From a virus: a stretch of DNA of 44,200 nt. The translations under genes were made by a program, and so were the position numbers. Positions 8,477 to 35,270 of this stretch are shown here, in pieces; position 1 is the stretch's first letter; every line of letters starts with the position of its first letter. The stretch is taken from positions 1 through 44,200 of the IMG/VR virus record IMGVR_UViG_3300042882_001152, one strand, 5' to 3'. Under the pieces are notes generated by a model. It was not told the origin of the DNA, ran no database searches, and saw nothing but the letters and a program-made list of their open reading frames with translations.

Positions 8477-8643
8477 TGGCCGCCGCAATGACACTCCGCG
8501 AGGCCATCGCCAGTCGCCTTACCAGCTACGCGGCTGAGCGCGGACTTCCCCCGTTGGACCCACCGCCAGGGTCTCAAGTACCGCCCCAAACAGCGCCCGC
8601 TGCTCCTGCGGTGTCGCACCTGAAAAAAACTCAGCGTCGCTGA
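8476..8643 (+). CDS. short early ORF running into antisense of the recombinase
   Basis: ATG overlaps the previous stop (TGATG). The first 27 residues (MTLREAIASRLTSYAAERGL and flanks) look like a genuine helical N-terminus. The remainder is Pro/Ala-rich and reads antisense through the 3' end of the serine recombinase gene. Either a real 55-residue protein or the remnant of a longer gene cut by insertion of the recombinase module. Confidence 0.4.
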   Translation: MAAAMTLREAIASRLTSYAAERGLPPLDPPPGSQVPPQTAPAAPAVSHLKKTQRR

Positions 8644-9823
8644 TCCGCTCGGCATAGCCAGCCAGTTCAGGTGCCACCCTCGGCCGTCGTATCAGGCTAT
8701 CAATCTCCGATCGCAATGCAACGCACGCTGAGGCAATCGCGGGGTTTCGCCTAGCCAGCCCCTCTAACTGTTCCAAATCCCTCCGCTTTGCCGCCACCGC
8801 CGGATCCTCGTCCGCAGGCATGGCATACGCCGCCGCCAGGCGATCTGCGGCAGCCACGCACGCCGCCACCGCCAGAGGCATGGCGTCATGCTCTTTGATG
8901 GCGCCCCGCTCCTGGCACAACCGATGACGGCAACGCCACCACGCCGTATTCCCAGAGTTGTTGCGCCGCAGGCTGTGGCCGCACGCCGCGCAGCTCAGCA
9001 GCCCGGTCAGCCCATGGCGCACCTCGTTGGCGTGGCCCAGGAACCGGTTGGCCGGCCGCCGCAGATACTGCGCCAGCTCCTGCCAATCGGCCTCTGAGAT
9101 CAGCGCCGGATGCTGGTCGTGGTGGATCTCCCCCCATCGCTGTCCCCAGCTTTTTCCGCTGCCCTTCTCCAGCAGGTGCCCCACGTGCCCACGAATCACG
9201 GGGTTACAGAACCATGCCTGCAGGTTGGAGCCCGATGGCGTCCAGCTACACCAAGCCGGTAGGTCTTTTGTCACCGCCGAGAAGCTTCCCAACTCTCGCA
9301 GTAGCTGCAGCACCCTCAGCGCCTGGGGCCAGTGCTCCGGGTGGGGCTGCAACTTGTGAGCGGCACCCCCTCGATACCCGAACGGTTTTCGGCGCCGTAG
9401 GTGGCGGCCCTGCGCTCGGTACTGCTCAAACTGCCGCCGCAGCCGCAGGCTCAGCATCCTCGACTCCACCTCTGCCATGGTGGTGAGGATCCGGGCTTGC
9501 ATGAACCCCTGGGGTGACGCCGCTTCGATGGTGCCGCCGTCGATCGCCGTGACCCTGACCCCCTGGATCCCGCACAGGGCCAGCAGCTCATCGGCGAAGG
9601 CGGCGTTTCGCCCCAGCCGATCGGCCCGGGTGATTACCAGCTCAGCCACGCGGCCAGAGCGAACCTCAACAATTACTTCCGCCAGGCCTGGGCGGGTGTC
9701 AACCTTGCCGCTCTCCATCTCCTCGACAATCCGATCGCAGCCGGCCGCCCGAAGCCTGGCCACCTGAGCAGGCAGGCTGTCCGCCTGTTCCTCCTTGCTG
9801 ACGCGGGCATAGCCGAGCTTCAT
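8519..9823 (-). CDS. large serine recombinase (XisF-like integrase/excisase)
   Basis: 434 residues. The N-terminal catalytic domain begins MKLGYARVSKEEQADSLPAQ with Arg7 and nucleophile Ser9, and has ITRADRLGRN with Arg66, Asp68, Arg69 and Arg72. It is followed by the long helix (ILTTMAEVESRMLSLRLRRQ), a recombinase domain (PFGYRGG, WCNP-like region) and a Cys-rich zinc-ribbon (LLSCAACGHSLRR, then WRCRHRLCQ), then a C-terminal coiled coil. This is the cyanobacterial XisF/phage integrase layout. It probably integrates or excises the element by a Ser-DNA covalent intermediate. The gene is antisense to the early operon and overlaps its last ORF by 125 bases. Confidence 0.88.
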   Translation of the reverse strand: MKLGYARVSKEEQADSLPAQVARLRAAGCDRIVEEMESGKVDTRPGLAEVIVEVRSGRVAELVITRADRLGRNAAFADELLALCGIQGVRVTAIDGGTIEAASPQGFMQARILTTMAEVESRMLSLRLRRQFEQYRAQGRHLRRRKPFGYRGGAAHKLQPHPEHWPQALRVLQLLRELGSFSAVTKDLPAWCSWTPSGSNLQAWFCNPVIRGHVGHLLEKGSGKSWGQRWGEIHHDQHPALISEADWQELAQYLRRPANRFLGHANEVRHGLTGLLSCAACGHSLRRNNSGNTAWWRCRHRLCQERGAIKEHDAMPLAVAACVAAADRLAAAYAMPADEDPAVAAKRRDLEQLEGLARRNPAIASACVALRSEIDSLIRRPRVAPELAGYAERISDAEFFSGATPQEQRALFGAVLETLAVGPTGEVRAQPRSW

Positions 9824-14700: not shown

Positions 14701-15678
14701 TCAGGCCGCGAAATTGGCCTTGGTCACGTTGTAAAGACGGGCAGCCTTGCGGGGGTTCCTGATCACCGCCGCGCAGTCAATGTTGATCCGGGTCTTGAAG
14801 TGGGTCGTGGCGTAGGACTCGCCCACGTCATAAACCACCAGGCCCGGCTGAAGGTCGCCGTTTACCATGCTGAGGCCTTGGGCCATGTAGACCGAATCCT
14901 CGCCAAGAGCAACGCAATAGATGGAGCAGGTATTGCCACCGCTCCCTTCAGTAAAGCCCTGAATCGGTACGTTGAGAGGGTCAACATCCGTGAGGATAAT
15001 TTCCGCCTCGTCGTAGAACAGCGCCGGCTGACCGAGAGCATTGGTCTCGATCTGCAGGTTGCCGGTCAGGGTCTGATCGCGCCGCAGGGCCTGCAAGGCG
15101 GGCCTCATACTCTTGGGGAAGATCAGTTTCTTCTCGGATGGCGCCGCGTCCACTTGGTTCATCATGTCGTCCAGGGCCGACAGCTTGAGAGGGGCGCCGG
15201 AGGCATGGTTGGCGATGGCCTGACTGTTGGTGGATACAGCCGTAATCAGGTTGGCAAGACCGTTGAACGACCTGCCGCTGGTGGCCTGCTGGCTGCCGCG
15301 AACAAAGTCGGTCTCCAGCAGCATCCGAATGGCTTTGGCGTTGCGAAGAACCTCGCTGTCGTGAGAGCCTCGGCCTTCGCGAGCGAGGCGCTGAACATCG
15401 GTTTCAATGTCAGCGGTGTAGATCGCCGTGATCACGGAATGAGGGATGGAGCTGCCTCGTCCGTTCCTGGGCTTCTCGTCCAGGAGGCGAGCGGCCACAA
15501 CGGGCAGCTCATCTTCTAGGCCGAAGACCTCAGAGGCGCCAACGATGTCCTTAAAGGGGAGTTGCGCGAAGAGGGGGCCGTTGTCCAGCATCGTCTGGAG
15601 AACGGCAAGCTCCTGCATGTTTGCATCGGCCTCGAAAGACTTCTGCTCAAAAACTTGGTGGTAAGTGGTGACGGTCAC
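14701..15678 (-). CDS. major capsid protein (HK97-fold type)
   Basis: 325 residues from a GTG at 15678, chosen because VTVTTYHQVFEQKSFEADA looks like a capsid N-terminus while the 51 codons upstream are repeat-derived. It contains LPFKDIVGASEVFGLEDELP, helical stretches, KKLIFPKSMRPALQALRRD, a domain with LGQPALFYDEAEIILTD, and a C-terminal strand set with FKTRINIDCAAVIRNPRKAA. Size, composition and position directly after a coiled-coil scaffold gene fit an HK97-like shell protein. No SD is evident; the GTG follows CCTCCTAATC. Confidence 0.72.
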   Translation of the reverse strand: MTVTTYHQVFEQKSFEADANMQELAVLQTMLDNGPLFAQLPFKDIVGASEVFGLEDELPVVAARLLDEKPRNGRGSSIPHSVITAIYTADIETDVQRLAREGRGSHDSEVLRNAKAIRMLLETDFVRGSQQATSGRSFNGLANLITAVSTNSQAIANHASGAPLKLSALDDMMNQVDAAPSEKKLIFPKSMRPALQALRRDQTLTGNLQIETNALGQPALFYDEAEIILTDVDPLNVPIQGFTEGSGGNTCSIYCVALGEDSVYMAQGLSMVNGDLQPGLVVYDVGESYATTHFKTRINIDCAAVIRNPRKAARLYNVTKANFAA

Positions 15679-15835
15679 GATTAGGAGGGGGTAAAAGTGG
15701 GCGGGCCCGTCGCTCAGCGGCTGTCCAGACAGGCATCGCGCCACACCGACAAGCCAGGGCTCGGGGGATTCAGTTGCCCCTGCCGCATCGCGCTTAAGGG
15801 GTGACCCCGCCGCATCGCGCTTGGGAGTCACCCGC
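15679..15835 (-). promoter_or_regulatory. capsid leader region with repeats and possible 33-aa leader peptide
   Basis: The 14-base unit GCCGCATCGCGCTT (plus strand) occurs at 15782-15795 and 15809-15822, with a shorter copy near 15733. CTGTC-N2-GACAG lies near 15720. An ORF from ATG 15815 to TGA 15714 (33 codons) begins 20 bases after late-gene element copy 3, the usual element-to-start spacing, so a leader peptide is possible. The capsid frame is also open through this region from a GTG at 15831. Confidence 0.4.
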
Positions 15836-21602: not shown

Positions 21603-22354
21603 CGGATCTTCGTCACCGCGAAGGACACGTCGTAGTAGGTGCCGATCGTGCCGCCATCAGCGCGGCGCTTGGCCACCGGCTCGGACCATTCGGTAGGAAA
21701 CCACCCGCCGGTGGAGGGGCTGGCAGAGGTGGTGGTCTTGAGCCAGGTCTCCAGGGCCGTCAGGTTGGCCGCCGTCACCCACCCCTGCACGCGCCGCGTT
21801 TCGGTCGGAGCCAGGGGCCCAGTAATCACGTGGCGCCCACCGGGGGTGATCGCCAGGGCCGGCAGATCGGTGAAGCCGTCGGGCCTGGCGGTGAGGTTCA
21901 CCACGGCGGTTCCGAATGTGATCGTGCCCAGGTTGAGTTGTGCGGCCTGCTCCGCCTCCTCCTCGCCCTGCCGCAGCAGGATGGCCAGCGACTGGGAGGC
22001 ATCGACAAGGGTGGCGCTCACCCGGCAGAACATGCCGGCCATGGGGAACGAAGGGGCCGAGGCGAACCAGCAGGGCACCGCCGAGGCCCATGCGAAGCCC
22101 GGCGCCGCGCCGGTCAGGCCCACGGTGGCCCCCACCGCGCCGGTGCGGATCGGGTCGTCCTCAAGGATCTTCACCGCGTTCCAGGCGTCATAGATCCCCG
22201 CGATCGTGGCGCCGTCCTCGCGGCTCACGATGCCCGAGAGGGCCCACCGCCTGGCGGCCCGGCCCCGGCGCACCTCCACCTCGTCGTAGCCGAAAGGGTG
22301 CTCCGTGAGGTTCGGGAAGGTGTAGGTGGCGCCGCTGTAGGAAATCGTGATCAT
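21599..22354 (-). CDS. distal-tail-like protein (251 aa)
   Basis: Begins MITISYSGATYTFPNLTEHP, a beta start common to distal tail proteins. It continues with EVEVRRGRAARRWALSGIVS, GIYDAWNAVKILEDD, SATLVDASQSLAILLRQGEE and a C-terminal TGGWFPTEWSEPVAKRRADG then YYDVSFAVTKIR. Coupled at both ends (ATGA with the tape measure gene and with the hub gene). Its place between tape measure and hub is that of the distal tail protein. Confidence 0.65.
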   Translation of the reverse strand: MITISYSGATYTFPNLTEHPFGYDEVEVRRGRAARRWALSGIVSREDGATIAGIYDAWNAVKILEDDPIRTGAVGATVGLTGAAPGFAWASAVPCWFASAPSFPMAGMFCRVSATLVDASQSLAILLRQGEEEAEQAAQLNLGTITFGTAVVNLTARPDGFTDLPALAITPGGRHVITGPLAPTETRRVQGWVTAANLTALETWLKTTTSASPSTGGWFPTEWSEPVAKRRADGGTIGTYYDVSFAVTKIR

Positions 22355-25300
22355 CGGAAGCCCTGCAGGGTGTGGAGGAGGCCGGCGTTGCCGGGCAGGT
22401 TGACGGTGACCTCAGGCCGATACGACCGCATGGTGCCTTCCAGGGCATCGATCGAGCGCTGGAGGCGCCCCAAGGCCGCCGCCTGCGACGCAGCGCCGCC
22501 ACCCCCGGCAGCCGGGGCCATGCCAGCCAGCAGGGGAGCCGGGCCGCCGCCGAAGGCGCCGAGGGCGTCCAGTCGGGAGGTGAGCCCCGCGGGGAGCACC
22601 ATGCCGGGGGACGGCGGGCTCCAGGAGCCGTAGGCCGGGGCATGGATCAGCGACAGGGCGCCCGAGCGGCTCAGGAAGCTTTCCACCCCCAGCTCGTTCA
22701 CCTGATACCGGCCGCCCGGCTCCACACCGCCGCCGGCCCAGCGGGCAGCGGGGGCGTTGGCGAGCTTGGAGACGGTCTGGAGCAAGATGCTGGCTTGGTC
22801 GTTGGCCTCCGCAAAGCCCATGCCCAGCGCCTTGGCCGCGTCGGTTGCGTTCCGCAGGGGCGCAGGCAGGCCTGACGCTGTGGCGTAGATCTGCTCTACC
22901 GGGCCATCCCCGGCCTGGATCGTGCCCACAAGCACCTGCCTGAGCCGATCCACACCTGTTGCGGCTTTGTCAAGCTTGGCCAGGGGCTCGATCAGAGACC
23001 GCTCCCAAGAAGTGCCAGCGTCTGACCAGATATTGCCCCACTCCTTGCCGATCGCCGCGGACCGCATCTGATTGGCAGCGGTCGCCTGTTGAACCTGCTG
23101 GGTTTGGCGCTCTAACCCGAAGATTATCCCGAGGTTGGCCATCCGCTCACGCTCAACCCCGGCCAGCGACTGCGCGGCCTTGATCGATTCCCCCTGCAAC
23201 TTGACTTGATCGTTGAGGAATGGTTTTTGCAGTGCCGTGGTGCTTGGATCAGCTAGCTTGCTGCGCAACTCAAGCAACTGTTGGCGCTCCTGCAGCACCG
23301 CCCGATCGGCCGCCCGCATGGCGCCTTGCTGCTCCAGGAACTGCCCCGCCTGCTTCAGCTCCAGCACCTTGCGCTCCATCTCAAACCGCTGCGCCGTGGC
23401 CTCAATACTGGCCTTCATGGCACGAAACTCGGCCTGCTCGCCCTCGCGCTTGATCGCTACGATCCTTTGCTCCGCCTGCTGAATCACCTGGGCATTGGCC
23501 CCGCGCTCTCGCAGGAACTGCAACTCCTTCTCCGCCAGGCTGAGGCGGTTGCTGTTGCGACTGCGCTCCACGTCAAAGCCGCTTTGAGTTAGGGCTGCCT
23601 GAGCGTTGGCGAGGTTCACGTAGGCATCGGCCGCCTGCTGCACGTAACGCAGTCGAGCGGTGAACTGCGCTGCCTCTTTCTCGTCTAGGTTGGCGCTCGC
23701 CTGCTGCACGTTGAGCTTGCTCTTTGCAACTTCCAACTGTTCCCTTGCGGTTAGCACCCGTTTGCCATCTGCGGCAACCTGTCGATCCAATGTTGCCGCT
23801 AGATCCTTGTTGATCCTCTCGCGTTCAATGTCAAGATTCCTGACTTGAATCTGCAGCGGTAGCAGCTTGCCGCGGGTAACCACTGGGTCGATGCCCTTAG
23901 ATAGCATGACGGCAATATCGCCTTGCAACTTGCCAAGTTGCTGCACGGCCTCCTCTCGGTCAATCACTGTCTTAATTCCGATCTTCCTGAGATCAATCTG
24001 GCGCTGATAAATATCCAATGCTCCGTCTATTACTTTCTGCTCGGGGGCGCCAACAGGGAGGCTGATTTTCCTGGCCAGCAGCGCCTTAACCTCTTTCTCG
24101 ATCGCAGCGAGATCCTTGGCCCCCTGTTGGGCCACCGGGGAAGCGTCGGTGACGGCCTGGCCCCGGTCAATCTGCTGCAGCAGCTTGAGGTAGCGCTCAG
24201 CACCGTCCACCTTGGCCTGTAGCGGCGTCCTCTGCCTGTCCCCTTCACTTAGCTTGCCGTATTCCTCTTTCAGTGTTTTAATTTCAGCCCTGGCCTTGTC
24301 AATGCTCAACTTAATCTCCAGTGGTCCCTCAATCTCCCGTAGCTTCATGTAAAGCTCGTTCACACGCTTCTGCGCGTCGGTGGTATCAATCCCCAGCTTC
24401 TTCCCGTCTGCAATCTCTTTCTGAAGCTGGGCGATCTGATCTTTCAGCTCGCGGGCCTTACTGCTGAGGGCTTCGGTTTCCTGGCCTGTTGCCTTGATGT
24501 TGCTGTTGAGCACCGCGTACACGCCCGCGGCGGTTGCAGCAGCGCCGACCAGTCCAGCGATGAATCCACCCCTTGCGGCGCCAGACGCCAGGGAGGTGAG
24601 CACAGCTGTTCTGCCGAGCTGAATGTTGAGGAAGCTCAACCCGGTTGCAGCGATTCCAGCGGCTGCGGCAATACCACGGAACACCAGAACACCGGCCCCC
24701 AGTGCGATGGTGGTTTGAACCAGGGTTTTGGTGGTCTGATCCATCTCCTTGAACGCCCCGGTTACCAGCAGGATCCCGGCGGTGGCAGCGGCCACGATCG
24801 CAAGACTCCCCCCGATTCCAGCCACGGCAACCCCGGCCGCCCTTGCCGCAACAGACAGCCCCGCGAACCCACCCGTCTGAGCCAGCACGAGATTGAGCGC
24901 AGTGAGGCTGATCGCTGCGCCGGTGGAGGCGATGCCCAGGGCGATCAGCGCCGCCCCGGTGTCCTTCACGGGCTTGGGCAGGCCCGAGATGGCCCCCACG
25001 GCAAGGTTGGCCGCCTGCACCAAGGGCCGGAGACCTGCCGCCATCACCCCTCCGATGTTGTTGCGGAGGGAATCCATGGTGCCGGTGAGCTGCTGGATCT
25101 CCAGGCCCATCCCAACCATCGCATTGCGGGCGGTGTCGGTGGCCCCTTTGCTGTTGCGGAGGTCCGCGAACATCTTGGCGATGGCTGAGTTGCTCTGGTT
25201 CGTGATCGACAGGAACTTGGAGCCCGCGTCATCGCCGAACAGGATGTTCGCCAGCTGCACCTGATCGGCCTGGTTGAGCTTCTCTAGGCCTGCCTTCAGG

Positions 25301-26406
25301 CGCAGGAACACCTGCTCCAAGGGGAGGAGCTTGCCGCTGGCATCGGTCACGGTGGCCCCGAGCTTGCCCATCACTTGCTGTAGCCGCTCCTGACCGCGCA
25401 CGAGGCCCAGCACCTCGGGCGATGCGCCGCCGGCCGCCTCCTGCAGTTTCTGCAGGCCCGTGCGGAGGCCTGTGCCAGCCACGCTGCCTTGTATCCCCGC
25501 GTTAGCCATCAGGCCGGCGGCGGCGGCCACGTCCTCCAGGCTCACTCCGAGGGCTTTGGCGATCGGCGCGGTGTACTCAAAGGTGTAACCCAGGCCCTCG
25601 ATGCTCGCGTTGGAGCTGTTGGCCGTGTTGGTCAGCACGTCCACCACGCGGGCGGTCTGATCCACCTCAAGCCCAAACCCCCTAAGGGTGTTCCCCACGA
25701 TGTTCCCGAAGGCCTCAAACCCGGTCCCAGTGGCCTCGGCGCCCCGGACCACCCCGGCCAGAGCCCCCTCCACCTCGGAGATACTGAAACCGGCCCGCAC
25801 GAGGGACGTGGCGAGCTCGGCCACCTGCTTGGTGGTGCCGGCCGCATCGATGCCCACCTGATCCACGATCTGGCTGAGGCGCTGGTAGCCGCCCGTCTCC
25901 CCCGCAGCAGCGGCGGCCAGGCGAAGCTCGCCGTCCAGCTCCAGAAACCCCTGCACGAGGCCCCGCACGCTGCCCAGGGCGGTCCCGGCTGCGTCGGTGA
26001 GTCGGCTGGTGAGGCTGACGGCAACACCGGTGACAGCGGCCTCCAGCAGGTTCATCCCTGCGGCCGATTCCCGCGTTGCGGCGGTGGTCGCGGATTTGAA
26101 GGCATTGATGGCCTGCGTCGCCTCAGCAAAGCCCCGGTTGACCTTGCCGATTTGATCGAGGGTCTTCTGGGGGATCACGTCCCCGGAGACCGTCTCAAAC
26201 TGCAGCTTGACCCGGTTAAAGCGGACCCCGGCCTCCTTCGCGGCCTTCTCCGCCTGCGCCACGAGATCGTTGAAGGCCTTCTGTGCCTGTGCGCTCAGCC
26301 CCTTGCCAAAGTCCGCCCCCGCCTGCCCGCCTGCCCGCTCCAGTTCGCGGGCGATCTCCGCCTGGTTCTCCAGCAGGAGGGCCAGTGAAACCTGGAGATC
26401 CGCCAC
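22351..26406 (-). CDS. tail tape-measure protein (TP901-like core)
   Basis: 1351 residues, the longest gene. A helical N-terminus precedes the TP901-type core (about 180-420): AELATSLVRAGFSISEVEGA, GNTLRGFGLEVDQTARVVDV, LTNTANSSNASIEGLGYTFE, GVSLEDVAAAAGLMANAGIQ. A hydrophobic segment (about 480-640, several membrane-like helices) is followed by long coiled coils with KSKLNVQQASANLDEKEAAQ. A Gly-rich, beta end has GGRYQVNELGVESFLSRSGA. It sets tail length and probably helps DNA entry. Length implies a long, non-contractile tail of the order of 200 nm by the usual residue-to-length rule. Element copy 6 is 25 bases upstream. Confidence 0.92.
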   Translation of the reverse strand: MADLQVSLALLLENQAEIARELERAGGQAGADFGKGLSAQAQKAFNDLVAQAEKAAKEAGVRFNRVKLQFETVSGDVIPQKTLDQIGKVNRGFAEATQAINAFKSATTAATRESAAGMNLLEAAVTGVAVSLTSRLTDAAGTALGSVRGLVQGFLELDGELRLAAAAAGETGGYQRLSQIVDQVGIDAAGTTKQVAELATSLVRAGFSISEVEGALAGVVRGAEATGTGFEAFGNIVGNTLRGFGLEVDQTARVVDVLTNTANSSNASIEGLGYTFEYTAPIAKALGVSLEDVAAAAGLMANAGIQGSVAGTGLRTGLQKLQEAAGGASPEVLGLVRGQERLQQVMGKLGATVTDASGKLLPLEQVFLRLKAGLEKLNQADQVQLANILFGDDAGSKFLSITNQSNSAIAKMFADLRNSKGATDTARNAMVGMGLEIQQLTGTMDSLRNNIGGVMAAGLRPLVQAANLAVGAISGLPKPVKDTGAALIALGIASTGAAISLTALNLVLAQTGGFAGLSVAARAAGVAVAGIGGSLAIVAAATAGILLVTGAFKEMDQTTKTLVQTTIALGAGVLVFRGIAAAAGIAATGLSFLNIQLGRTAVLTSLASGAARGGFIAGLVGAAATAAGVYAVLNSNIKATGQETEALSSKARELKDQIAQLQKEIADGKKLGIDTTDAQKRVNELYMKLREIEGPLEIKLSIDKARAEIKTLKEEYGKLSEGDRQRTPLQAKVDGAERYLKLLQQIDRGQAVTDASPVAQQGAKDLAAIEKEVKALLARKISLPVGAPEQKVIDGALDIYQRQIDLRKIGIKTVIDREEAVQQLGKLQGDIAVMLSKGIDPVVTRGKLLPLQIQVRNLDIERERINKDLAATLDRQVAADGKRVLTAREQLEVAKSKLNVQQASANLDEKEAAQFTARLRYVQQAADAYVNLANAQAALTQSGFDVERSRNSNRLSLAEKELQFLRERGANAQVIQQAEQRIVAIKREGEQAEFRAMKASIEATAQRFEMERKVLELKQAGQFLEQQGAMRAADRAVLQERQQLLELRSKLADPSTTALQKPFLNDQVKLQGESIKAAQSLAGVERERMANLGIIFGLERQTQQVQQATAANQMRSAAIGKEWGNIWSDAGTSWERSLIEPLAKLDKAATGVDRLRQVLVGTIQAGDGPVEQIYATASGLPAPLRNATDAAKALGMGFAEANDQASILLQTVSKLANAPAARWAGGGVEPGGRYQVNELGVESFLSRSGALSLIHAPAYGSWSPPSPGMVLPAGLTSRLDALGAFGGGPAPLLAGMAPAAGGGGAASQAAALGRLQRSIDALEGTMRSYRPEVTVNLPGNAGLLHTLQGFR

Positions 26407-26444: not shown

Positions 26445-26885
26445 TCAGGGGCGCTGCAACACCGCCACCGGACAGGCCCACGTAACCGAATGCTGCTGCA
26501 GGCCCGTGGTGAGCCCGTCGATGGTCACGTCCGAGGCATTGGCCCCCGGCAGGAGCTGCAGGAGGCGGTTCAGCACGGCGAGCTGATTGCAGGCACCCCC
26601 GGCGGTGGGAGGTTCCCACTGCGTCACCGACAGGCGGAAGGTGGGCCGCACGTCCACCTCACCGGTCTGGGCTTGCGTGGTGGCTGTGCCCATGGGCGAG
26701 CGCCACACCACGATCTCCACCCCCGCAGGCTGCGTGGTGGGCTCGATCGTCTCCTTTGGCCAGAAGTGCGCCAGGGCGCGGCGGGTGGCACCGCCTTCGA
26801 GCACGTGGACCCCCAGGAGGGGGGTAAGCACCGTGTCGGCCGCCAGGAGGTCGAACAGGGCCAGGGTGGTGGTGGGGAGGGGCAT
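26445..26885 (-). CDS. probable tail terminator protein (146 aa)
   Basis: LALFDLLAADTVLTPLLGVH, VLEGGATRRALAHFWPKETI, GVEIVVWRSPMG, RPTFRLSVTQWEPP, then a helix LAVLNRLLQLLPGA and a last strand HSVTWACPVAVL. The alpha/beta order (N-terminal helix, strands, helix, strand) and size fit the gpU/DUF3168-like terminator fold that caps the tail tube. It starts two bases after the basic protein gene ends and is followed by the tape measure gene. Confidence 0.55.
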   Translation of the reverse strand: MPLPTTTLALFDLLAADTVLTPLLGVHVLEGGATRRALAHFWPKETIEPTTQPAGVEIVVWRSPMGTATTQAQTGEVDVRPTFRLSVTQWEPPTAGGACNQLAVLNRLLQLLPGANASDVTIDGLTTGLQQHSVTWACPVAVLQRP

Positions 26886-26887
26886 GG

Positions 26888-28474
26888 TTAGCGGCGACCC
26901 TTGCGGCCCTTGTTCACTCGCTTTCTTGCTTGCTCTCGAAGTTGCTTTGCCATTTCCGATCTGTCTTTTGATGCGCGAATCGTACGCATGATATTCAAAG
27001 GTGAACTTAGTGATTGCCGATCAAGCTCTTTGCCGCTTATTTTTACGACAGTCCGTTGCCTGTTGTATATCTCGTTAGCGGCTGACCTTGTGACCTGGCT
27101 TCGGTACATGCGTGCATTGTCAGGGCCGCTAAGGGAGCCCATTGAACCGCTGCGCAACGCCTTCAGTGTCTGGGCTTGCGATTGCTTAATACCTTTAGTG
27201 ACCCGTGCCCTTCTTGCTGCGATTGCCTGCAAGGATCCAAGTCCTGCTTTGGGCTTGGATCCTTTCGCCTTCACCCCCCTCCGCGCCGCCAACACCCCCG
27301 GCTTCATTCCCCTCGGCTTGGCCACGGTCCCGGCGGGGCGGGCGGAGCGGGTGCGCTTGGGGGCGGTGGGTTTGGGTTTGGCCTTGGGAGTGCGAATGTC
27401 GCTGCGGCGAACTTCGTTGTCGTAGCGCGTGTAACCCTCTTTTGTGGTCCCTGCCATTCCCTCCGCGAAGGACTTGGCCCTTTGGGCCGTCATTGAACTC
27501 TTTTGGAGCCTGGCGTTTGCCTTTTCCGCTTTTGCCAGTCTTGTGAGCGCCGTTTTCCGCGCTTGCGGAGTCATGTCGGAATACTGATTCCTTGCCGGTA
27601 TTGCCTTGTTTTGCGCCCTTTTCAGCTCGTCTTTTGCCTTGTTGGCCATGTCGGCAAGTGCCGCAGCCCTTGCGTTTGCCCTGCCGAGAACTTTCTTCCG
27701 CTGCGGAGATAGCGGCGCAAGCCTGTCACTCCCCTGCAGCGCCGGGACCACCGTTGAGCGCCGCGCTCGTGCTGGCTTGGTGGCAGAGGGAGGCTTGGCG
27801 GGCTTGGCCTTCGCCTTGGCATTGCGGACCGCCCGGCGCACGGACTCGGCAAGGTCCATGCGTCCCTGTCCGCCGGTACGCTTGCTTTCTCGCGTAGAAG
27901 CCGCCAAAACAAACTTGCTGGCCCGGTCGTAGGTCTGCAGCAGGTTCCTGTTGCGACGATCCGAGCCTGTCGCCTTCCGCAATCCAGGCCTGTTCGCGTC
28001 AAGCCTCGCAATGATCCGGCCTGCCTTGGCATCGCTGATATTGCGCTTGGACTCCTTTTTGGCGGGCTTGGCGACAGAGGGGGCGGTCGGTCGTTTCAAG
28101 GCCTTCGCTGGGGCCACCGGCTTCGCCGCCATCCGCTCCTTCCGCACCGCCGCCAGGCTCCGCGCCACGCTTCCCCTGATCCCCCTGCCACCCTTGGCGA
28201 TCGTGCTGGCCCTGAACCCTGCCGGCTTCATTGAAGCAAGCTGCGTTGCCCGCTTGTTCCCCTTGGCCGTCTTCAGCCTCCCGCCGCGCACCGTGGCCCC
28301 ATTGCGGCCGATCCCGCTGATCCGCCCGCTGTTGTCCCGGTTCAGCCGGTTCCCCGCCCTGGTGGCCGCCCGCCGGGTCGCTGGGGTGCTCCGCTTGGGG
28401 GCGCCGCCGCCTGGCGAGCTGGCGAACCGGCCGTTGTTGTCGCGGGTGTAACTGGTGCGGCGGCCTCGTGGCAT
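26888..28474 (-). CDS. very basic virion-region protein, paralogue A (528 aa)
   Basis: Extremely rich in Lys, Arg and Ala. It begins RGRRTSYTRDNNGRFASSPG followed by GGAPKRSTPATRRAA, nearly the same as the start of the 35741 protein. Other shared strings include ARPAGTVAKPRGMKPG. The middle has histone-tail-like AKAKAKPAKPPSATKPARAR; the last 90 residues are less biased (ISGKELDRQSLSSPLNIMRT). It resembles no enzyme I know. A DNA- or RNA-binding virion protein is a reasonable guess. Element copy 7 is 26 bases upstream; the gene is divergent from the lysis island. Confidence 0.75.
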   Translation of the reverse strand: MPRGRRTSYTRDNNGRFASSPGGGAPKRSTPATRRAATRAGNRLNRDNSGRISGIGRNGATVRGGRLKTAKGNKRATQLASMKPAGFRASTIAKGGRGIRGSVARSLAAVRKERMAAKPVAPAKALKRPTAPSVAKPAKKESKRNISDAKAGRIIARLDANRPGLRKATGSDRRNRNLLQTYDRASKFVLAASTRESKRTGGQGRMDLAESVRRAVRNAKAKAKPAKPPSATKPARARRSTVVPALQGSDRLAPLSPQRKKVLGRANARAAALADMANKAKDELKRAQNKAIPARNQYSDMTPQARKTALTRLAKAEKANARLQKSSMTAQRAKSFAEGMAGTTKEGYTRYDNEVRRSDIRTPKAKPKPTAPKRTRSARPAGTVAKPRGMKPGVLAARRGVKAKGSKPKAGLGSLQAIAARRARVTKGIKQSQAQTLKALRSGSMGSLSGPDNARMYRSQVTRSAANEIYNRQRTVVKISGKELDRQSLSSPLNIMRTIRASKDRSEMAKQLREQARKRVNKGRKGRR

Positions 28475-28796: not shown

Positions 28797-28960
28797 CCTG
28801 CGGCCTCGTTCGGCTGATCTGTGAGGAGCCCACGGCCCTCCCGCCCGGTCAGGAGGGCAGCAGGTCGCTGGTGGTGGACGTGCTCCCCGAGCAGGTCGCC
28901 GCCGAGGTGGCCCGGCTGCAGAGCGAGGGCTGGCAGACGATCTCCGAATGGCCTCTCTGA
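28793..28960 (+). CDS. small hypothetical protein (55 aa)
   Basis: ATGA overlap with the previous gene and TGATG overlap with the endolysin start. The peptide starts MTCGLVRLICEEPTALPPGQ and ends EVARLQSEGWQTISEWPL. A strand-loop-helix mini-protein of unknown role; its placement directly before the endolysin suggests co-expression with lysis genes. Confidence 0.6.
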   Translation: MTCGLVRLICEEPTALPPGQEGSRSLVVDVLPEQVAAEVARLQSEGWQTISEWPL

Positions 28961-30033
28961 TGAGCACCAATCCCCCCGATCCCCAGTGGCTGGCCCCAGC
29001 CCGGCAGATCGTCGCCGAGTTCGAAGGGTGCCGCCTCACCGCCTACCCCGACCCCGGCAGCGGGGGCGATCCCTGGACCATCGGCTACGGGCACACCGGG
29101 CCCGACGTGGTGGAGGGCGCCGTGATCACCCAGGCGGTCGCTGAGGGCATGCTGACCACGGACATCAACCGCGCCGCCGCCGAGGTGTTCCGGCTGCTCC
29201 CGATGGCCAGCAAGTGGACCCCGAAGCAGCAGGCGGCCCTGATCTCGTTCACCTTCAACGTGGGCCCCAGGAGCCTGGAGATTTCCACCCTGCGGCGGCG
29301 CCTGCTGGCCGGCGAGAGCCCTGAGGCCGTGGTGAAGGCCGAGCTGCCCCGCTGGAGCAAGGCCGGGAAGAAGACCCTGGCGGGCCTGGTGCGGCGCCGG
29401 GCGGCAGAGGTGGCTCTGTTCGTGGCCGGTGCTCCTGCCCCTGTCACGATCGCCACGCCACCGCGCCCGCCTGGTGGCCCCGCTCCCCAGGGCCCGCCGA
29501 TCTGGCCGCCGGGGATGGTGGGCCCGAAGATCCGCCCCACCCTGAAGCCCGGTGATCACCACCTGATCGCCAACGACGTGGACCAGACCCTCACGGCCTG
29601 GACCCATGACGGGCGCCGGCTGTGGAGGATCCCCTGCTTGTGCCGTGGACAGGGCAAGGAGGCCGAGTGGAACCGCACGGGCACCGACACGCCGCCTGGG
29701 CTCTACCGGATCAACCCGAAGGGCATACACCGGGACTACGAGGCCGATCCAGCCGCGAACTTCACCCCCGATCGCCGCGCCTACGGCTGGTATTCGTTTG
29801 ACCTGGAGGGGCTGGAAGGGCAGGAGGGGCCCACGTCACGGCCCTATCGCGACGGGATCATGCTGCACGGTGGCGGCAGCGCCTGCGGCTGGCCGGGGGC
29901 CTGGAACCCACGGCAGGAGCTGCACCCGACCCTTGGCTGCATCCGCCTCCACAACCAGGATCTCCGCGATCGGATCCTTCCCCTGCTTGGCCTGGGGACC
30001 GTGTGGGTCAGCGTGCTGCAGGAGGCTGTATGA
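28960..30033 (+). CDS. endolysin: GH24 lysozyme fused to an L,D-transpeptidase-like domain
   Basis: 357 residues from the ATG at 28960 (an in-frame ATG four codons earlier is possible). Residues 15-150 are a T4-type GH24 lysozyme: FEGCRLTAYPD with Glu22 and Asp31, then WTIGYGHT with Thr40, and QQAALISFTFNVG. A Pro-rich linker (about 165-188) leads to a beta-rich C-terminal domain with LTAWTHDGRRLWRIPC, NRTGTDTPPGLYRINPKG and MLHGGGSACG with His303, then HPTLGCIRLHNQDL with Cys327 and Arg329. The latter is the HG...GC(I/V)R pattern of YkuD L,D-transpeptidases. It should cleave murein glycan strands; the second domain may act on or bind peptide crosslinks. Confidence 0.88.
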   Translation: MSTNPPDPQWLAPARQIVAEFEGCRLTAYPDPGSGGDPWTIGYGHTGPDVVEGAVITQAVAEGMLTTDINRAAAEVFRLLPMASKWTPKQQAALISFTFNVGPRSLEISTLRRRLLAGESPEAVVKAELPRWSKAGKKTLAGLVRRRAAEVALFVAGAPAPVTIATPPRPPGGPAPQGPPIWPPGMVGPKIRPTLKPGDHHLIANDVDQTLTAWTHDGRRLWRIPCLCRGQGKEAEWNRTGTDTPPGLYRINPKGIHRDYEADPAANFTPDRRAYGWYSFDLEGLEGQEGPTSRPYRDGIMLHGGGSACGWPGAWNPRQELHPTLGCIRLHNQDLRDRILPLLGLGTVWVSVLQEAV

Positions 30034-31164: not shown

Positions 31165-31848
31165 TCACCACCAAACCTGCTGCCCCGTCCGTACCTTCAT
31201 GGCTCGATTCCAGCTGAGCGCCGCCTCGTCCACTGCGGCTATGGCCGGCAGGGGGCCGCAGGAAAGCAGCAGGTGGTGAGCGATGCCCCGGATGATCTCG
31301 TTGGCCTCGGGGTCACCGATCCACCGCTGATGAATCAGGGCCGGGAGGTAGTAGGACGACTTCCAGACGGGATCCTGCCGCAGGCCACGGGGGCGCGACG
31401 CGGCGGCGGTGCGCTGCTGGAGGGGCTCTGCAGTGGCGGACTGGGCCACGCCGATGGGCTCCAGGAACCAGCCATCCATCCACACCGCGAAGGCCGGGCT
31501 GATCCAGCGGGCCAGATCGACCGCCAGGCGGGGGTGGATCCAGGTGCCCTGCAGCTCGGGGCGGCCGCCCTTGACGAGGTGAATCAGGCCATCGATTCCC
31601 GAAGCCGGAAATCCGGCCACGGCTGCGCCGCAAGGGATCTGAATGCCCAAGCCCTCGGCAAGGGCACAGACGTACTCGCCAGTGCGCTCGTTGCTGGCGT
31701 AGTGGTTCCACCGCTTCCCGCCGGCCTTGCACATGGCCGTGGCGTTCACAAAGCCATCCGCCTCGCGGCGCTGAATTGCGCAGCCGTTCCACTGCCGGGC
31801 CTCAACGCCGGCCGACAGCAGAGCCGGGCCGCAGTTCGCGTTCTTCAT
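31165..31848 (-). CDS. KilA-N domain protein
   Basis: 227 residues. The KilA-N core spans about 20-130: QRREADGFVNATAMCKAGGK, RWNHYASNERTGEYVCALAE, LIHLVKGGRPELQGTWIHPR and AVDLARWISPAFAVWMDGWF. A C-terminal helical domain has SSYYLPALIHQRWIGDPEAN. KilA-N proteins are DNA-binding proteins common in large viruses and phages; a regulatory or replication-interfering role is typical but not proven. It sits alone on the minus strand between the lysis island and the RHH-like gene, divergent from the latter. Confidence 0.88.
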   Translation of the reverse strand: MKNANCGPALLSAGVEARQWNGCAIQRREADGFVNATAMCKAGGKRWNHYASNERTGEYVCALAEGLGIQIPCGAAVAGFPASGIDGLIHLVKGGRPELQGTWIHPRLAVDLARWISPAFAVWMDGWFLEPIGVAQSATAEPLQQRTAAASRPRGLRQDPVWKSSYYLPALIHQRWIGDPEANEIIRGIAHHLLLSCGPLPAIAAVDEAALSWNRAMKVRTGQQVWW

Positions 31849-32614: not shown

Positions 32615-33466
32615 TCAGGCGTTGTCGTAGATGGTGTGAACCTGGCCCAACACCATCAGCGAGGCGCCGTACTTCACCAGGGCGCCTGCATCACCCTCTT
32701 CTTGCTTGGATGTAATCCGGCCGTAGCACAGCTTTTTCTCAACCGTGCCACCAGGTCCAACCCGCAGATACTTAACGGCGAGCTTCTCGGCGACACCTAG
32801 CTGACGAATGACCTCCATGATCTTGTGATCTACCGATCTATGCACGGTCATGCCCTTAAAAGCAATGCTGGAGTCGGAATTGATTCCGATAGAGATTGAA
32901 GCGCCGCGGGTTACCTGATCGTGCGTGAGAACCTTCTCGTCCTGTCCCTGCGTCGAGAGGGGGGCGCCGGTGACGTTGAGGAGCTGGATCGGCTTGCCGG
33001 TGCCATCCAAGGGGTAGACCCCCGTGGTGACAGTGCCGGTATCAACCGCGCTGGTGATGTTGCTGGCGGTCAAGGCGTAGGTGAAGGTCGTCGTGCTGGG
33101 CGCCGTTGCCACGGTGAAGGTGCCATTCACGGCAGTGGCCGTGGTGGCAGCCACTAGAGCCCTGTCACCAGTGGCCAAACCATGGGCGGTGCTGGTAGTA
33201 ATCGTGACAATGTTGGAAGCAAGCGCAACATTGGTGATCGTCCTGGTGGTGCTATTCACCAGCAAGCGGAAGGTGGAGGCCTCCCCGCTGGTGCTCACAG
33301 CCCCGGCGCCGCTGATCGCGTTGGCGGTGTTCAGCCAGGAGCTGAGGTTCGCGCCGTTGTTGGCGGCGGCGGTGGCAGCATCCTCAAGCGCCACGGACGC
33401 GAGTCGCATCGGGACGATGTAGTGCTGGATATCCAGCGCGGCGGCGTAATCAACGGTCGAGGGCAT
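32615..33466 (-). CDS. major tail tube protein, probable
   Basis: 283 residues. The N-terminus is VDYAAALDIQHYIVPMRLAS, then ALEDAATAAANNGANLSSWL. About residues 75-150 form an inserted beta module (ITNVALASNIVTITTSTAHG, ATAVNGTFTVATAPSTTTFT, SNITSAVDTGTVTTG) of the same type as in the 13953 protein. The C-terminal part has ASISIGINSDSSIAFKGMTV and VEKKLCYGRITSKQEEGD. Size, position beside the chaperone-like genes and beta-rich composition fit a tail tube subunit. Element copy 8 is 26 bases upstream. A decoration or tail-sheath-like protein cannot be excluded. Confidence 0.6.
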   Translation of the reverse strand: MPSTVDYAAALDIQHYIVPMRLASVALEDAATAAANNGANLSSWLNTANAISGAGAVSTSGEASTFRLLVNSTTRTITNVALASNIVTITTSTAHGLATGDRALVAATTATAVNGTFTVATAPSTTTFTYALTASNITSAVDTGTVTTGVYPLDGTGKPIQLLNVTGAPLSTQGQDEKVLTHDQVTRGASISIGINSDSSIAFKGMTVHRSVDHKIMEVIRQLGVAEKLAVKYLRVGPGGTVEKKLCYGRITSKQEEGDAGALVKYGASLMVLGQVHTIYDNA

Positions 33467-33484: not shown

Positions 33485-34159
33485 CTACCTGGAGTTTTCC
33501 CGGCTCGCCAACACCAGCACCGCGCCGGCCTGGGCAGCGGCGAACGATCGCCCCGGCACCACATCGGCCGGCACCCGCAGGGCCACGACCTCGCCGGCCT
33601 CAGAGGCGAACTCCCGCACCCGGCCCACGGCGCTGGCCTGGGCCACGAGGAACCCGCCCCAGTGACCTGCGTCCACCCGGTAGGGAGCCAGAAGGATCGC
33701 ATCCTCGGCCGCCCAGCACAGCCGCGGCGGTGGGGTGACGCCTCGGCCCTGGGCCTCCAGATCGGCCAGCCATGGGCCGTCGAGCACGAACCCCGGCAGG
33801 AGGTTGCGCTCTAGGAGCTCCAGCAGGGCGGCGCCGGCCTCGCTCGGGGGGCGCGGCTTCTCGGCCACCTCCACCCAGAAGCAGAAGTCCTTCAGGCTGT
33901 AGGGCTCGGGCTGGCTCTCCCTGTTGCGGTTGGTTTCGGCGAGGATCAGGGCGATTTGGGCGATGCCCTTTTCTTCCCGGTGAAGCCTCTCGCGTTCGGC
34001 TGTGTGGCCCGCCTGGAGGGCCTGGAGGACATAGCCGGCGGGGAGCTTCCCGAATCGCTCGCGGCTGAACTCAGGGGCTCCGGGCCAGAATCTGCGGCAA
34101 TCCCAGAAGGCTCGGGCCCAGTCGGGTCGGTCGCAATCGAGCTGCTGACCTCCTGCAAC
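33485..34159 (-). CDS. downstream -1 frame of the tail chaperone fusion (GT-like part, 224 codons)
   Basis: Open in the -1 frame from the slippery site at 34159-34165 to the stop at 33485, with no start codon needed. It reads VAGGQQLDCDRPDWARAFWD, then FSRERFGKLPAGYVLQALQA, HREEKGIAQIALILAETNRN, SLKDFCFWVEVAEK, and a C-terminal GHWGGFLVAQASAVGRVREF region. The sequence is clearly protein-like for about 70 codons while still overlapping the 275-residue gene, which argues for fusion rather than the internal GTG start at 33874. The fusion would be 429 residues (205 + 224). Confidence 0.75.
   Translation of the reverse strand, partial: VAGGQQLDCDRPDWARAFWDCRRFWPGAPEFSRERFGKLPAGYVLQALQAGHTAERERLHREEKGIAQIALILAETNRNRESQPEPYSLKDFCFWVEVAEKPRPPSEAGAALLELLERNLLPGFVLDGPWLADLEAQGRGVTPPPRLCWAAEDAILLAPYRVDAGHWGGFLVAQASAVGRVREFASEAGEVVALRVPADVVPGRSFAAAQAGAVLVLASRENSR
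33493..33502 (-). promoter_or_regulatory. late-gene start element copy 8
   Basis: Exact CGGGAAAACT, 26 bases before the start at 33466, overlapping the last codons of the frameshift ORF. Confidence 0.75.
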
Positions 34160-34773
34160 TTTCCCAGCGCCTCCTCCAGCGCCCGCATCTCGGCCGCCGG
34201 ATCCTGCTGCAGGCCAGCGCCGGCCCGCTCCTCCTCCTGCTCAAAGGCGTGGAGGATCCCCAGCAGGGGGGCGGGGAGCCTGCGGGTCTGCTCGTCGGTC
34301 CAGGCGGGCTTGATCCGGTTCAGGATCACGGTGACGGACCGAATCACGACACGGTTGGTGACGGCCCTGGCTTCCACCAGAAAGGGGGCGATGATCCCGG
34401 CGTAAAGCACCTGCACCGCCTCTTCCTCGGCGCTCATCCGGCCGATGCTGGCGCCCTGCTCTTGGGCCAGCAGGCGGGTGAGCAGGCCAAAGCAGCGGTG
34501 GGCGGTGAACTCCAGGGCTCGCGCCTGCGCTCCGGGGTACTCCGCGATCCGATCTGCATCCGCTTGCATGGCATGAGCCAGCTCCACCGCAGCAGCGGTG
34601 ATCAAGCGGTAGAGGGCGTTCTGCGGGTCAATCTCCCGGATCCCCTGCATCTCGTCCACGGTGAGGTAGCCCAGCCGGGGGATGGTCATCTCCCCGCCGT
34701 TCCACTCAACCGTGGCAGTGGCCTGCTCGGAAGCCTGGGGCACGGTTTCCCAGGGGAGGAGATCGAAGCTCAT
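33946..34773 (-). CDS. tail assembly chaperone-like protein (G-like, 275 aa)
   Basis: N-terminal ASEQATATVEWNGGEMTIPR, GYLTVDEMQGIREIDPQNAL, then a helical body (EFTAHRCFGLLTRLLAQEQG, RVVIRSVTVILNRIKPAWTD) and EMRALEEALGK up to the slippery site at codons 204-205. The 70 residues after the slip are Ser/Pro-rich and unstructured, as expected for the zero-frame tail of such a gene. In siphophages G and G-T bind the tape measure during tail assembly. The start is coupled (ATGA) to the upstream connector gene. It is unusual that it precedes rather than follows the tail tube gene. Confidence 0.65.
   Translation of the reverse strand: MSFDLLPWETVPQASEQATATVEWNGGEMTIPRLGYLTVDEMQGIREIDPQNALYRLITAAAVELAHAMQADADRIAEYPGAQARALEFTAHRCFGLLTRLLAQEQGASIGRMSAEEEAVQVLYAGIIAPFLVEARAVTNRVVIRSVTVILNRIKPAWTDEQTRRLPAPLLGILHAFEQEEERAGAGLQQDPAAEMRALEEALGKLQEVSSSIATDPTGPEPSGIAADSGPEPLSSAASDSGSSPPAMSSRPSRRATQPNARGFTGKKRASPKSP
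34159..34165 (-). other. programmed -1 ribosomal frameshift site GGGAAAG
   Basis: In the zero frame it reads G-GGA-AAG (codons 204-205 of the 275-residue gene), the same heptamer used by phage lambda between G and T. A GGAGGAGG purine run lies 4 bases upstream and could act as a stimulatory internal SD. After the slip the codons are GGG-AAA and translation continues into the 224-codon ORF. Confidence 0.78.
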
Positions 34774-35270
34774 TGGAGGCGGCGGAAGGCTTGGATGAAT
34801 GATGCCCGGTATTGGGCCCGATAGTCATAGGGCTCAATACCGGGGATTTTTATGGTCCCGATCACCGCCGAGGTCCAGGGCCGGGCAGGCAGGTTCACGA
34901 GGGGGCGGGTCTTGTCGCCCCATGGATGGACGTTTGCGCCGTAGTGAACCGCTGTGGCATAGCCCACGGCCCATCGGAAGGTGCAGAGGCTGCCCGAGAT
35001 CTGGAAGCTGTTGGAGGCTCGCAAGGTGCCGAGGTCCACGATGTTACGAGGCGAGCCCACCGGCCGGCCAGGGGTGCGGCTGCCATCACGGCGGAAGGTG
35101 CCCCCGCGCATGGTCACCCTTGGCCACTCCCACGCCTTGGTGCCCAGGGCATCTTGAAAGGCGCTGTTGAGCTCGGGGAATACCACTCGCGCCGCCGCCT
35201 CTGATGCCCGCTGCGCCTTGGTGAGGGTGGCCGGGTTCACGCGCACCGTGGCCCTGGTGCTGACTTTCAT
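34770..35270 (-). CDS. tail-completion/connector protein, HK97 gp10-like (166 aa)
   Basis: Basic N-terminus (STRATVRVNPATLTKAQRAS), a helix AAARVVFPELNSAFQDALG, then beta-rich GSPRNIVDLGTLRASNSFQI, FRWAVGYATAVHYGANVHPW and a final LPARPWTSAVIGTIKI with a helical RAQYRASFIQAFRRL. The ATAVHYGANVHPWG block, followed by RPW, is typical of head-tail connector or minor tail proteins of the gp10/Z type. Coupled by ATGA to both neighbours. Confidence 0.6.
   Translation of the reverse strand: MKVSTRATVRVNPATLTKAQRASEAAARVVFPELNSAFQDALGTKAWEWPRVTMRGGTFRRDGSRTPGRPVGSPRNIVDLGTLRASNSFQISGSLCTFRWAVGYATAVHYGANVHPWGDKTRPLVNLPARPWTSAVIGTIKIPGIEPYDYRAQYRASFIQAFRRLQ

Follow-up and report, generated by a model that had tools for sequence, protein, structure and literature searches.

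A predicted -1 frameshift site and a long, probably dual-coding overlap in a likely tail-assembly-chaperone gene of a cyanosiphophage

The locus and its reading frames

The 44.2-kb virus record analysed here (44,200 nt, IMGVR_UViG_3300042882_001152; hereafter the window) carries on its minus strand a gene whose product consists of a folded domain up to codon 205, followed by a 70-codon hydrophilic tail that is rich in Ser, Pro, Thr and Ala (Table 1). The heptamer GGGAAAG lies at the junction of the two parts: its first G closes codon 203, and codons 204 (GGA) and 205 (AAG) supply the rest, so that the zero frame reads G GGA AAG, and GGG AAA after a slip back by one base. A preliminary description of this DNA, made from the letters alone, had placed the heptamer in the right phase at these codons, had the -1 frame open for 224 codons with about 70 of them overlapping the zero-frame gene, and had warned that annotation of ATG/GTG ORFs only would lose 95 residues. 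All of this was borne out, the overlap amounting to 70 codons, and the 95 residues are lost because the first ATG, GTG or TTG in the -1 frame is the GTG at 33874, which is its residue 96.

Table 1. Features of the frameshift locus, its neighbours in the window, and the downstream proteins annotated in four cultured phages
Feature	Coordinates	Strand	Remarks
Zero-frame gene (gpG-like)	33946..34773	-	275 aa; ATG at 34773, stop ending at 33946
Slippery heptamer GGGAAAG	34159..34165	-	third base of codon 203 through codon 205
-1-frame T-like domain	33485..34159	-	224 codons plus stop; stop ends at 33485
Predicted frameshift fusion (gpGT-like)	33485..34773	-	429 aa
Dual-coding overlap	33946..34158	-	zero-frame tail and start of T-like domain on the same DNA
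ORF from GTG 33874	33485..33874	-	129 aa; truncated T-like domain, callable by a start-codon-based gene finder
Purine-rich GGAGGAGG	34170..34177	-	possible SD-like stimulator (putative); 4 nt upstream of heptamer
Head-tail joining (gp10-like) protein	34770..35270	-	conserved upstream neighbour; tblastn
Major tail protein	32615..33466	-	conserved downstream neighbour
Tape measure protein	22351..26406	-	~7 kb downstream of chaperone gene
PSS2, downstream tail protein	L054:7447-8675		given late start
S-CRES3, downstream tail protein	L055:7444-8585		given late start
S-CBS2, downstream tail protein	L056:7435-8597		given late start
S-CRES1, downstream tail protein	L057:7393-8576		given late start

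Conservation of the slip site and of the -1 frame

Relatives were gathered for the upstream part (27 loci) and for the downstream part (31 loci plus 8 phage records), and searching with a family alignment gave 80 viral loci; a search of bacterial genomes returned a single relative, on a cyanobacterial MAG contig. Conservation of the heptamer in homologues had been proposed as a check, and when we scored 84 homologous loci (S-CBS2, present twice, was counted once), 82 of them carried GGGAAAG or AAAAAAG in the X XXY YYZ phase, while the remaining two, identical to each other, read G GAA AAG TAA and retained A_AAG. Among the 43 unique sequences of the clade with a long overlap, both slip codons showed 0 synonymous pairwise differences against 614 expected from the rest of the gene, and they are the only columns free of synonymous change, among those with an expectation above 100, in the 222-column zero-frame alignment. 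Of the Gly codons in these genes GGA is the least used (106/1241), yet it occupies 39 of 39 GGG-type sites. The preceding Leu codon ends in G (CTG or TTG) in all 39 GGA sequences; the four AAA-type sequences all have CTA there, an uncommon codon, and the wobble base thus co-varies with the type of heptamer. Such a pattern would be expected under selection on the seven bases, beyond selection on the amino acids alone.

A fusion made by slippage of RNA polymerase, and not of the ribosome, is highly improbable. The AAAAAAG relatives do contain a run of six A, but GGGAAAG, the form in most members, contains no homopolymer of more than three bases; moreover, GGGAAAG and AAAAAAG both fit tandem slippage of two tRNAs, and the second slip codon is always AAG, a form reported to be shift-prone in E. 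coli (PMC5009743).

As for elements that might stimulate slipping, a purine-rich stretch just upstream of the heptamer had been pointed out earlier, and GGAGGAGG is indeed present there, although it is only partly conserved: its first Glu codon, GAG, is constrained (39 versus 240 expected synonymous differences), its second Glu codon is not (259 versus 172 expected), and the element is missing from several relatives. Downstream of the heptamer, the RNA folded no better than shuffled sequences (z -0.4, -0.8 and 0.05) and no conserved structure was found (consensus energy -2 kcal/mol).

The -1 frame is conserved right up to the slip point. In the window and its near relatives it contains no ATG, GTG or TTG from the upstream stop to residue 95-98, and the earliest such codon in the long-overlap clade is at residue 64. 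So far as these reading frames tell, the first 95 residues of the T-like domain in the window are reachable by frameshift only. This part is nevertheless conserved: W19, P26, G27, F31, L39, Y43, A47 and E63 are invariant or nearly so in 31 diverse members, and the first 63 residues rank among the best conserved of the domain.

The nearest isolates are the cyanosiphophages PSS2, S-CBS2 and S-CRES1-3. In PSS2, S-CBS2, S-CRES1 and S-CRES3 a homologous pair, with 29-34% identity in the T-like domain, has the same frame relation and the same neighbours, and the layout around the heptamer, which is GGGAAAG in PSS2 and S-CRES3 and AAAAAAG in S-CBS2 and S-CRES1, is the same as in the window. The public annotation of all four lists two genes and no frameshift, and in all four the homology starts before the annotated downstream start, close to the in-phase heptamer. 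The alignments thus indicate that the late-start downstream protein of each phage would be the 3' part of a frameshifted gene, and that it has been recorded in PSS2, S-CBS2, S-CRES1 and S-CRES3 without its first residues. The paper on S-LBS1 groups PSS2 with S-CBS2 and does not mention a frameshift (PMC6157547), and a search of literature outside subscription journals, a weak negative, turned up no report of a frameshifted tail chaperone in cyanosiphophages of the PSS2/S-CBS2 type.

These data bear directly on the alternative that the downstream domain is a separate gene with a start of its own, at GTG 33874 or elsewhere, and that the heptamer is incidental. A 129-residue ORF does open at this GTG, and databases annotate the relatives as separate genes. 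However, homology and invariant residues reach 95 residues upstream of GTG 33874, to the slip point; the first start codon of the -1 frame falls anywhere from residue 2 to residue 186 across relatives, at no conserved place; and the heptamer is the most constrained site. The preliminary description had named homologues with an independent downstream gene as the finding that would speak against a fusion; none with a separate gene and its own start was found among the relatives, in which homology runs upstream of the annotated starts to the slip site. A separate gene is thereby largely refuted already, and we regard it as having next to no likelihood. Programmed -1 frameshifting at GGGAAAG is, in turn, very strongly supported by the comparison of homologues, through the conservation of the heptamer, the interchange of GGGAAAG and AAAAAAG together with the matching Leu codon, and the conserved -1-frame residues that no start codon precedes.

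Constraint in both frames of the overlap

The length of the zero frame beyond the slip differs widely within the family: it measures 0 to 27 codons in distant relatives (0-1 in S-CBS2, S-CRES1 and S-CRES3), 39 in PSS2 and 58-81 in the clade of the window. GC-rich members would be expected to keep the zero frame open in any case (P about 0.9 for the window), and in AT-rich ones an open frame is only mildly surprising (combined P 0.008-0.07, depending on the lineages counted). The synonymous rate in the overlap is not lowered overall (0.99 versus 1.02), and the reading this invited, that the zero-frame tail is unconstrained, was overturned by tests of composition.

In 17 representatives, Leu and Val codons of the form xTG make up 1 of 133 Leu/Val codons of the -1 frame within the overlap, against 594 of 996 in the remainder of these genes (Fisher P 6e-46, computed on counts that are not independent; P 0.0003 for the window alone and 3e-7 for the MAG relative). 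An xTG codon in the -1 frame places TGN, which is Cys, Trp or a stop, in the zero frame. Since the depletion persists where the next base is not A (1/121), avoidance of stops is not its sole cause. No depletion was seen in 28 relatives that have the same T-like part without a long overlap (74/238 versus 479/1451, P 0.6). We then computed the composition expected of the tail by reshuffling synonymous codons of the -1 frame: the observed tails contain 0 Cys against 47 expected, 1 Trp against 23.5 and 0 stops against 14, with Asp, Glu and Lys at 2.1-2.3 times and Ser and Thr at 1.6 times expectation. Almost all representatives individually show significant avoidance of Cys, Trp and stops; it does not continue past the zero-frame stop, and two controls for it were negative. 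Judged from codon choice, selection on the zero-frame tail is on the type of residue and not on the sequence.

Could a local effect of composition, and not selection on the zero-frame tail, account for this bias? We consider it rather unlikely. G-ending codons are indeed reduced in several codon families beyond Leu and Val, but Ala codons hardly shift, and the direction of the shifts depends on the residue encoded in the zero frame, with Ser, Thr, Lys, Asp and Glu favoured and Cys, Trp, Tyr and Ile disfavoured; the bias ceases past the zero-frame stop, is absent from relatives without the overlap and holds across members of 43-71% GC.

The preliminary description had called the zero frame past the slip low-complexity; it is Ser/Pro/Thr/Ala-rich, as described above, but not meaningless, because the codon choice shows selection. 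The DNA after the slip would thus probably encode two selected segments: in the -1 frame the conserved first part of the T-like domain, which is selected for its sequence, and in the zero frame the tail of the gpG-like protein, selected, as composition suggests, for being hydrophilic and probably disordered. Overprinted segments are commonly disordered. If both segments are selected, frameshifting would swap a functional tail for the T domain, as opposed to merely adding T to G. Constraint in both frames also suggests that the unshifted and the shifted product are probably both made. The sequences by themselves thereby point to an unshifted product that is produced and under selection, and they open the role of the gpG tail to testing. 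As far as we found, a long dual-coding overlap with constraint in both frames is new, while frameshifted tail chaperones themselves are known.

Two codons of the -1 frame within the overlap (about window 34027-34045) stand out. Leu39 (alignment column 38) is CTC in all 43 unique sequences, with 0 against 391 expected synonymous differences, and gives an invariant Ser in the zero frame; at residue 44 (column 43) GTC is the only Val codon and ATC the only codon of the Ile variant, with 0 against 217 expected.

Proposed role in tail assembly and genomic neighbourhood

The preliminary description had read the pair as the G/G-T tail chaperones of siphophages, and this reading gains support from synteny, from names containing 'tail assembly' in the annotation of the S-CRES phages, and from weak Phage_tail_T and fold matches. 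The neighbourhood is the stronger argument for this identity, ahead of family or fold matches. The head-tail joining protein, the T-like domain and the major tail protein find matches in exactly the same eight cyanosiphophage records, and the order of joining protein, pair and major tail protein recurs in S-CBS2 and in the S-CRES phages. The annotation of S-CBS2 calls the genes on either side structural proteins but leaves gp015 and gp016 hypothetical, which would be as expected for chaperones that leave the virion, a hint that comes from annotation.

Family and fold searches add less. The T-like domain of the window matches PHROG 34388 ('unknown function') with E 7e-19, as do 31 of 31 family members, and PF06223 (Phage_tail_T, Minor tail protein T, the lambda T family) matches weakly in 8 of 31 members, with a best E of 0.0055 and every match below the Pfam curated cut-off. 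An hhalign comparison of the family with single lambda T and G sequences gave nothing. AlphaFold2 models have a mean pLDDT of 86 both for residues 1-205, a beta-hairpin followed by helices, and for the T-like domain. The best viral fold match of the N-terminal domain is F4YCJ6 (181 aa), taken from its protein length to be S-CBS2 gp015, and its further viral matches are weak, some of them labelled tail protein or tail assembly chaperone; the model of the T-like domain matched one viral protein well and few others, weakly beyond close relatives. Among solved structures (PDB), no useful sequence match was obtained for either half, nor a fold match for the T-like model.

In lambda, most ribosomes finish gpG and few slip to make the fusion; the part shared by both products binds the tape measure and T brings the tail subunit (PMC5009743). 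The window shares with the lambda gpG/gpGT system the heptamer G GGA AAG, identically phased, a short product with a rarer predicted fusion, and a place in the tail-gene cluster (PMC5009743). It differs in that, apart from the weak Pfam matches, the pair has no detectable sequence similarity to that of lambda, in that 70 codons follow the slip where lambda G has 5, in that the T-like domain is bigger and has an extra beta domain, and in that the gene precedes the major tail protein, 7 kb from the tape measure gene, whereas the lambda gene lies directly upstream of the tape measure gene. A conserved frameshift between two tail genes is likewise shared with HK97-type phages and the set of Xu et al. 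2004, a likeness that we draw from descriptions in reviews.

That the frameshift is real but serves some pair other than tail chaperones, for instance a structural protein together with a longer version of it, we hold to be unlikely. This alternative could appeal to the failure to match lambda G or T, to the PHROGs label and to the position of the pair before, and not after, the major tail protein. Against it stand the weak Phage_tail_T and tail-protein matches, the weak fold matches to annotated chaperones, the place of the pair within a syntenic block of tail genes, and a slip type and two-product layout typical of chaperones. We therefore very much favour a lambda G/GT-type tail-assembly-chaperone gene of a cyanosiphophage, a role that is well supported but indirectly so, and which would assign a likely function to PHROG 34388 and the protein encoded before it, a conserved but unnamed pair of the cyanosiphophages.

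On the chaperone model, most ribosomes would read from 34773 to the stop and release the gpG-like protein, while at G GGA AAG a minority would move back by one base and go on to produce the fusion, which has the 224-residue T-like domain in place of the final 70 residues. By analogy with lambda, the shared N-terminal domain would coat the tape measure protein, the T-like domain would recruit the major tail protein, and neither product would be found in the virion. In this clade the unshifted product would bear a long hydrophilic tail encoded in the DNA of the T-domain start, and synonymous choice in the -1 frame would keep Cys, Trp and stops out of that tail and its frame open. The site, its phase and its conservation, the dependence of the T frame on the slip, the constraint in two frames and the synteny can be read from the sequences. 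The slipping itself, its rate, the ratio of the products, the binding steps and the chaperone roles are what we infer.

The gene sits in the tail module yet not directly upstream of the tape measure gene, a place that is customary, though not obligatory, for chaperones of the lambda G/GT type; the major tail protein comes next. S-CBS2 and the S-CRES phages have their tape measure gene about 2 kb away, and PSS2 about 19 kb. The region just upstream of the tape measure gene (26445-28474) was considered as a second chaperone pair and rejected, having no family match. It includes, two genes upstream of the tape measure gene, a very basic Lys/Arg/Ala-rich protein of 528 aa (26888-28474, minus strand), also with no family match. 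An endolysin-like gene (28948-30033, plus strand), which joins a phage lysozyme domain (E 4.5e-35) to an L,D-transpeptidase (YkuD) domain (E 1.8e-9), runs on the opposite strand to the tail genes, with the major tail protein gene on one side of it and the tape measure gene on the other, and a KilA-N domain protein (31165-31848, minus strand; E 2.5e-21) is encoded amid the tail genes. The major head protein (14701-15831, minus strand) is encoded a long way downstream of the tail genes and in their orientation, which points to an unusual order of head and tail modules or to a circularly permuted record. Finally, a serine recombinase with Resolvase and zinc ribbon domains is encoded at 8519-9823 (minus strand), suggesting a temperate phage.
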